Shown here piece by piece: positions 19,542 to 20,295 of a stretch of DNA of 64,000 nt; the first letter of the stretch is position 1, and each line of letters begins with the position of its first letter. The notes under the pieces are model-generated. The model did not search any database, was not told where the DNA came from, and was given only the letters and a program-made list of their open reading frames with translations. This stretch comes from Desulfobacterales bacterium (lineage in GTDB: Bacteria > Desulfobacterota > Desulfobacteria > Desulfobacterales > SpSt-501), in NCBI GenBank assembly GCA_030834695.1, contig JAUQXK010000124.1, positions 1-64,000 of the forward strand. Direction: 5' to 3'. The translations under genes were made by a program, and so were the position numbers.

Positions 19542-19877
19542 CTACGGGCGGTAAGCCCTGCGCTCCTTGAACTCCGCCTGCTTGCCCGCATTCCACTGCG
19601 CAACCGGACGAAGGTATCCCACCACGCGGCTGTAAACTTCGCAGCGACGGTAGTTCGTGAGTTCCGGATTCTCTTTGAAACACGCCGTGCACTTGTTGTT
19701 GAACTTGCCGGGCTCCGGCTCGTACAGCGCTCCGCCGCTGATCGCAAAGCCTTCGGAGGTGAGCGCCACGTCAACCCGCACATCTTTTCCGCAGTCATGA
19801 CAGGTTCCGGGAAAGCACAGCTTCGCTTTTCCGGGATTCTCATCGAACAGCTCGTGCAGCCTTTGAATCGTCATCAT
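19542..19877 (-). CDS. stand-alone NrdD C-terminal (glycyl-radical) domain-like protein
   Basis: A 111-residue protein resembling only the last part of anaerobic ribonucleoside-triphosphate reductase (NrdD). The stretch CEVYSRVVGYLRPVAQWN, followed by GKQAEFKERRAY at the very end, matches the NrdD glycyl-radical loop, with Gly87 in the position that carries the radical. Two CxxC pairs (Cys26/29 and Cys63/66) precede it and resemble the NrdD zinc site, though they are spaced more widely. No catalytic barrel or activase (NrdG) is encoded nearby. GGAGGT lies 7 bases before the first of two ATG codons, so it is an intact gene rather than a fragment. It may act as a spare radical domain, as GrcA does for pyruvate formate-lyase; that role is inference. 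Confidence 0.75.
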   Translation of the reverse strand: MMTIQRLHELFDENPGKAKLCFPGTCHDCGKDVRVDVALTSEGFAISGGALYEPEPGKFNNKCTACFKENPELTNYRRCEVYSRVVGYLRPVAQWNAGKQAEFKERRAYRP

Positions 19878-20295
19878 CTTTCGACCTCCGCCGCTTCTGG
19901 ATGGGCATTTCAGAAAAGTTTACACCCGCTTCCTATGGTGTGTCAACTTTATGTCGGCCACCACTAATTGTATTGTATTGAATTATTGACGAAAAATTAT
20001 ATTTTTCAACCCCATGGTTGATGGACTCGTAAAAAGTCGTCACTCCGGCGGAGCCGGAGTCCAGGGGATTTCTAACTGCTTGTAAATGCTTGATTCCGGC
20101 GCCTGTCCTGGACCTGATCCAGGATTCGCCGGAATGACAAAAAAAACAGCATGTTCAGACTTTTTGCGAAATTATCACAGGTGTGCAAGCCGTAATCGAA
20201 TTCGAAGTTTAACGAATGCGGATTGAAACAAACTTGGTTGAATTAACAGGATCAGTGGTTAGAATCGAATATTCCCTGAAGCGGAGGGCAACCCG
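19878..20295. other. intergenic region with AT-rich start and family B repeat
   Basis: This gap of about 420 bases lies between the divergent NrdD-tail-like and AsmA genes. AT-rich sequence near 19960-20010 probably holds promoters. The middle is a family B repeat. No gene was found in it. Confidence 0.45.
20024..20172. repeat. MITE-like palindromic repeat, family B
   Basis: An approximately 150-bp element bounded by inverted ends GACTCGTAAAAAGTC and GACTTTTTGCGAAATT, enclosing arms with GTCACTCCGG and CCGGAATGAC. An AAACAGCATGTTCAGAC segment near the right end matches in inverted form the left part of the copy at 14391. No coding capacity. Confidence 0.7.

Follow-up and report, generated by a model that had tools for sequence, protein, structure and literature searches.

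What question does this locus raise? It is whether the C-terminal glycyl-radical domain of NrdD, the class III ribonucleotide reductase (RNR), can exist and serve as a protein of its own. In the window, i.e., the whole stretch of 64,000 nucleotides from a Desulfobacterales bacterium that was analyzed, a first-pass annotation had singled out an intact gene of 111 residues as such a free-standing domain, and had suggested that it may be a spare part for NrdD, or a new radical protein, in an anaerobe that meets oxygen. We examine here the protein itself, its occurrence in bacteria and viruses, and the state of the full-length NrdD that accompanies it.

The small gene and its protein

The intact gene was found as proposed, on the minus strand; it begins with ATG, and the interval given in Table 1 includes the stop codon. 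The product matches Pfam NRDD with 45.3 bits (cut-off, 26.2; E = 6.6e-12) at profile positions 511 to 562 of 562, and the NCBIfam NrdD profile at E = 5e-11 at positions 538 to 579 of 581, where its score is 41.8 versus a cut-off of 326. The claimed resemblance to the C terminus of NrdD without the barrel was thus recovered by profile search. The ten-stranded barrel with its active-site cysteines is absent from the 111-aa frame, of which the match covers just 52 of the 562 Pfam profile positions. A Pfam scan to E = 1 gave only NRDD and DZR_2 and no match to the PFL-type glycyl-radical family, and the N-terminal part of the protein matched no other family above the cut-off in Pfam or NCBIfam.

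The radical loop takes up the last ~33 residues and lies C-terminal to a four-cysteine module, which consists of the two CxxC pairs seen in the first pass (C26/C29 and C63/C66). A fifth cysteine (C79) opens the loop CEVYSRVVGYLRPVAQWN, and the tail of the small protein is GKQAEFKERRAY. Failure of the Gly-Tyr loop to align with the NrdD glycine had been named as a result that would speak against the resemblance; the loop does align, and Gly87 occupies the place of the radical glycine of NrdD. The cysteine module before the loop is spaced as CxxC-x33-CxxC, whereas the NrdD of this order has CxxHG...CxxC with a short spacer. Among 56 aligned members, chromosomal and viral, Gly87, Arg84, and the four cysteines are kept in 55 or 56 (Table 1); this alignment omits the viral loci L263 and L284, which encode the same proteins as L262 and L283.

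The predicted model of the protein (P0002), built from 31 sequences, has a mean pLDDT of 82 and a pTM of 0.61, with a pLDDT of 59 to 75 in the loop block. A Foldseek search of this model, in which the loop is modeled less surely, gave no match in the PDB at an E value of 0.001 or better; VIA-align returned one row (Z = 2.2), and phmmer against the PDB sequences gave two matches (E = 0.3 to 0.4), neither of which is relevant. These searches do not prove that the fold is new. The intergenic region upstream of the small gene (window positions 20021 to 20145) contains inverted 'ccggcg' elements and has, by eye, the look of a dispersed repeat.

Table 1. Features of the small gene, in window coordinates, and loci with a split NrdD in the operon
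Feature	Position or locus	Strand	Remarks
Stand-alone NrdD-type glycyl-radical domain protein gene (P0002)	19542..19877	-	Pfam NRDD C terminus; loop-bearing relatives in 31/389 order genomes including itself
GGAGG ribosome-binding-like site, 7 nt before ATG	19885..19889	-	Read from sequence
First Cys pair, C26-H-D-C29	19791..19802	-	Kept in 55/56 aligned members; the 56th is without that part (contig end)
Second Cys pair, C63-T-A-C66	19680..19691	-	Both kept in 56/56 aligned members
Glycyl-radical loop, C79-EVYSRVVGYLRPVAQWN-N96	19590..19643	-	Aligns to NrdD C terminus
Predicted radical glycine, Gly87	19617..19619	-	Kept in 56/56 aligned members
Arg84 of RVVGY motif	19626..19628	-	Kept in 55/56 aligned members; counterpart lost in 9/10 decayed NrdDs
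In-operon split NrdD loci	L213, L215, L219, L226-L228, L234-L237, L240-L242, L246, L248, L252-L254, L256		

The genome from which the window is taken (G000; a 5.65-Mb assembly) contains exactly two matches to PF13597, namely, the small gene on contig C62 and a full-length NrdD on contig C30. The latter is a frame of 706 codons that is followed directly by an NrdG2-type activase (204.6 bits; cut-off, 131.15), so that full-length nrdD and nrdG, which the first-pass annotation had advised looking for, are both present on another contig. The small gene is unlinked to nrdD and hence does not lie between nrdD and nrdG. PF02867, the family of the class I/II RNR large chain, is also present in this genome. 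An open reading frame of 650 to 683 codons recurs near the small gene in some loci of the same genus.

Occurrence of the gene and loss of the radical glycine in NrdD

The small gene was found in 12 of 58 genomes in a first sample, the window genome included; the 11 relatives from other genomes are 53 to 86% identical, and none contains an internal stop. Among 389 genomes of the order, the small-protein profile finds 42 at E = 1e-15, 31 with the loop and 11 with the N-terminal part only. At the same threshold, a sample of the phylum gave 3 of 395 genomes (the window genome, one more of the same order, and G343 of another order). The idea that the gene might be conserved beside full-length NrdD across Desulfobacterota thus fails, both on this count and on the separate contigs of the window genome. 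A DNA-pattern scan of an 84,980-species collection, with a pattern that matched none of the full-length NrdDs then in hand, returned 45 stretches: 24 encode the small protein, 19 have NrdD split within its operon, and 2 (L221 and L224) are unassigned. All 24 small-protein stretches come from records titled Desulfobacterales, Desulfobacteraceae, Deltaproteobacteria, or 'Delta 3'.

All 31 carriers of the loop-bearing gene in the order also have NrdD, versus an NRDD match in 292 of the 358 other genomes (p = 0.005, a value that ignores shared ancestry). The loopless form occurs in 11 genomes: 8 of them show no match to NRDD, one more shows a weak partial match, and the other 2 have an intact NrdD. 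Loopless small proteins with an N-terminal Cys4 'GG' module were noted at L193-L204, L402-L404, L045, and L046, most of them from family f22, in which the genomes with this form are largely without NrdD; the one at L202 runs in a single frame into response-regulator-like sequence, as judged by eye. One genome, G574, has two stand-alone copies (L206:4518-4868 and L212), the second of which is placed beside viral forms in a weakly supported tree that leaves out G717.

The C terminus of the full-length NrdD was readable in 30 carriers (of the 31 in the order plus G343). The loop is intact in 20 of them, degenerate with the glycine kept in 2 (the window genome and its relative G005), and without the glycine in 8, where the replacing residue is Lys (G010, G462, and G498), Pro (G038 and G521), Glu (G492), Asp (G574), or Arg (G367). 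The NrdD loops that could not be read are those of G006 (a fragment), G542 (masked), and G522 and G576 (contig end). On the other hand, the glycine is kept in all 129 control genomes read, out of about 292 that have an NRDD match and do not have the loop-bearing small gene; ~163 further NrdD-bearing genomes without the small gene lie outside this set. The controls are made up of 60 late and 69 earlier genomes, among them both high-scoring genomes and 28 from a set of 59 picked as low-scoring or fragmentary; two loci (G057 and G013) were left out of the count because their genomes were already represented, and 9 of the 60 late controls that were missed by the regular expression were read by eye and all keep the glycine. 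Most of the genomes compared are draft assemblies, and the NrdD alignments omit L107 (masked N terminus, loop intact) and L108 (glycine kept). A Fisher test of glycine loss in carriers against 122 controls gave p = 1e-6, ignoring kinship. On a quick tree of 62 NrdDs with their tails removed, which leaves out the further Gly-lost case of G367, the loss amounts to four changes, two of which are forced by well-supported branches.

The arginine of the loop, where lost in decayed NrdDs, is always replaced by Gly. The window genome is among these cases: its NrdD keeps the radical glycine, has lost the loop arginine and other loop residues, and looks intermediate. Since the matching arginine of PFL presumably belongs to the recognition peptide of the activase, the NrdD of the window organism may be poorly activated even though its glycine remains. 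The decayed loops with the Arg-to-Gly change (L001, L060, L061, L063, and L149-L153) seemingly arose in parallel in several lineages; one guess is that the change came from selection against activase competition. An unrelated peculiarity was seen in G017, where the NrdD frame of 1127 codons (L051:543-3923) has, by eye, a large intein-like insert, and the NrdD C terminus occurs a second time in a 93-codon frame downstream (L051:5318-5596).

We put the probability at about 0.8 that the small gene encodes a glycyl-radical domain that is detached from class III RNR and acts in trans on NrdD, as a backup where the NrdD loop is intact and as one half of an obligate pair where the glycine is lost. 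The core idea of the first-pass annotation, a free-standing glycyl-radical domain that serves NrdD, is strongly supported by nrdD and nrdG2 in the window genome, by the presence of NrdD in every carrier of the order, and by glycine loss that, among the loops read, was found only with the gene. Judged by sequence, the small protein probably supplies the radical site where full-length NrdD has lost its own. The Cys4 module would present the RVVGY loop to NrdG2, the radical-SAM activase, for removal of a hydrogen atom from Gly87; the activated loop would then dock into the barrel of full-length NrdD, and Gly87 would make the active-site thiyl radical there, as the loop of NrdD itself normally does. 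The order of events may be like that of YfiD, in which case the small protein would bind NrdD and be activated by NrdG2 in the complex. What we observe is the homology of the loop, the conservation of Gly87, the decay of the NrdD loop, the conserved barrel, and the presence of NrdG2; from these we infer radical formation, docking, activation, and catalysis in trans. With an intact NrdD loop the small protein would be a backup or repair part, whereas in the Gly-lost genomes, of which there are at least eight, NrdD and the small protein would form an obligate two-chain class III enzyme.

The best-surviving alternative, which we nevertheless regard as improbable, is a pure spare part like GrcA/YfiD, which would only rescue NrdD cut by oxygen at the radical glycine, the Gly-lost NrdDs being incidental. 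The small protein has the architecture of YfiD, with a different N-terminal part and a copy of the loop of its partner, and the 20 carriers with an intact NrdD loop fit a backup of this kind; a need for the small protein is shown in none of those 20. According to the accessible part of PMC8683613, only YfiD and Y06I had been validated as spare parts (2021), and other GREs may have such parts. As a full description, however, the spare part that had been proposed is too weak for the Gly-lost genomes: NrdD lacks its radical glycine there, and the small protein would therefore have to be the radical subunit, a role for which no oxygen damage is needed. Among the loops read, a lost glycine combined with a conserved barrel was seen only alongside the small gene, and a part that merely rescues is not expected to relax the loop of its partner so far. 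Ten neighbors from five Gly-lost loci have no family in common, and no oxygen-stress family is found among them.

Viral relatives and the conserved barrel of decayed NrdDs

A viral relative of 144 aa, 44% identical over residues 17 to 109, is found in ANMV-1, which comes from methane-seep sediment. Its gene (L258:5881-6315; accession number KP703175) is annotated as anaerobic ribonucleoside triphosphate reductase and comprises only this domain. In IMG/VR, an alignment query gave at least 26 viral loci with the Cys4 module and the loop, a lower bound because the best 80 of 99 relatives were taken; the ANMV-1 protein alone as query yielded no confirmed relative in the viral contigs. The NrdD barrel was seen in none of the 27 virus records (these 26 and ANMV-1), several of which are fragments, and the loop protein is the sole NRDD match in them. 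The barrel-less records include ANMV-1 (38 kb) and nine of 38 to 91 kb, and virus records may be fragments. L290 and the viral records G796 and G798-G801 match NRDD solely through a loop in a short frame, which at L290 is without the Cys4 module. In viruses the small protein would act on the NrdD of the host; this reading suggests that viruses bring just the radical tip in order to drive dNTP synthesis in the host.

A use of the radical, or of loop mimicry, for some other purpose (to serve a different partner enzyme, to sense oxygen, or to tie up NrdG as a competitor) has only a slight chance of being correct. The N-terminal part does occur without the loop, once in the in-frame fusion of L202 described above, and the small gene and nrdD are unlinked; however, the loop is of the NrdD type with no PFL-type family matched, all carriers of the order have NrdD, and among the loops read, decay of the NrdD loop was found only with the small gene. 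Viruses need dNTPs, which would make a decoy less likely there.

The decayed NrdDs differ from intact ones mainly at the C-terminal end. Of 255 columns that are invariant in 51 intact NrdDs, the final ~35 residues account for 14, and 13 of these differ in at least one decayed NrdD; of the 241 columns upstream, only 2 differ, and both of these changes are conservative. The SMCCR motif is kept in all nine decayed NrdDs that cover it, and the zinc-ribbon motif is kept in 10 of 10, so that the Cys4 module of the small protein would be a second one. The barrel remains under purifying selection: its dN/dS is 0.06 to 0.12 in five pairs of decayed NrdDs versus 0.04 to 0.14 in eight intact pairs, whereas tail dN/dS is 0.28 to 0.66 in four Gly-lost pairs versus 0 to 0.18 in the eight intact pairs; the tail value of the pair formed by the window genome and G005 (0.165) is within the intact range and does not show relaxed selection there. 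An NrdG-type activase adjoins NrdD in all 10 decayed cases, and the 8 of these that were scanned are all above the NrdG2 cut-off.

A further RNR large chain (PF02867) is encoded in each of the Gly-lost genomes, and NrdD activity may thus not be essential there, as would suit Gly-lost NrdDs that are decaying pseudogenes and a small protein that remains as a fragment of an nrdD since lost. This reading is very improbable in view of the low barrel dN/dS, the two changed columns before the tail, and the retained NrdG2; moreover, the NrdD frames are without internal stops (that of G367 is in two pieces on two contigs), and conservation of the small proteins extends over families of the order and to viruses. 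It is hardly conceivable that the Gly-lost NrdDs bear the radical on the replacing residue, as aminoacyl radical enzymes do, with the small protein unrelated: Ala, Ser, or Thr radicals are reported in GRE homologues in the part of PMC11528403 available to us, whereas the replacements here are Lys, Pro, Glu, Asp, and Arg, the neighboring loop residues have decayed too, and the glycine is unchanged in every control genome read.

Returning to the domain that acts in trans on NrdD, we lean toward a wider interpretation, in which a class III RNR has come to use an unlinked radical subunit. A domain common to viruses and bacteria would repeatedly have assumed the role of the radical site, the glycine of NrdD would then have decayed, and the window genome would be part-way along this course. 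If the reading is true, a replaceable glycyl-radical part exists for ribonucleotide reductase, beyond pyruvate formate-lyase, and shows how a part used for repair may turn into an essential subunit; the Gly-lost lineages would be a natural experiment of this kind.

Comparison with known systems

The small protein would work like a YfiD-type part, while by sequence it is neither a member of the GrcA family nor an NrdD. Similar to GrcA/YfiD and to Y06I, a protein of phage T4, it copies the glycyl loop of its partner behind a different N-terminal part, and it has viral homologues. It differs from GrcA/YfiD in that its loop is of the NrdD type and not of the PFL type, in its four conserved cysteines, and in that the partner has lost the glycine in at least eight genomes, a loss that is not known for PFL. 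The text of PMC8683613, as far as it is accessible, states that YfiD, by binding cut PFL, makes activation possible within the complex and that activity comes back to the wild-type level.

Compared with NrdD, the loop CEVYSRVVGYLRPVxQWNxxKxxEFxxR of the small protein aligns to the ends of the profiles of the NrdD C-terminal domain (PF13597, TIGR02487, and NF006126). The zinc ribbon of NrdD lies between the barrel and the loop and reportedly takes part in interactions with NrdG; the loop dips into the barrel (PMC4493059, in part). The four-cysteine module of the small protein is located directly before the loop in the same way; its four cysteines are conserved with a different spacing, and the predicted model matched no solved structure. 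Unlike NrdD, the small protein has neither the barrel nor the ATP cone, has a longer and distinct module of ~75 residues, and is encoded by a separate gene on another contig.

A stand-alone NrdD glycyl domain or a split class III RNR was not described among the matches listed in the open-licence literature; a 1999 publication on nrdDG of C. necator may cover the small gene of that organism. In split class II RNR, NrdJa/NrdJb (PMC9669993), a C-terminal functional part is likewise a separate chain, whereas that enzyme is B12-dependent and without a glycyl radical.

A related arrangement is found on pHG1 of C. necator H16 (L259:1747-4120), where a 676-aa NrdD without the loop is followed by a 66-aa loop gene, annotated as nrdD, and then by nrdG. 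This NrdD belongs to the same NCBIfam family (NF006126) as that of the window organism, and NrdDG is essential for complete denitrification in C. necator, as stated in the available part of PMC2864759 with reference to a 1999 paper. In the 19 in-operon split loci (Table 1), NrdD likewise ends after the zinc ribbon and a downstream open reading frame of 59 to 85 codons (one of them cut by a contig end) holds the loop; the record titles include Alphaproteobacteria, Gammaproteobacteria, Rhodospirillales, Thiorhodococcus, Rugamonas, Aquitalea, Acidobacteria, Omnitrophota, Moraniibacteriota, and the like. The loop gene of C. necator, with the radical loop on its own chain and an NrdD that ends after the zinc ribbon, is a precedent for a loop on a separate chain. 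It lies between nrdD and nrdG and is without the Cys4 module, whereas the small gene of the window is unlinked, has a Cys4 module of its own, and coexists with a full-length NrdD.
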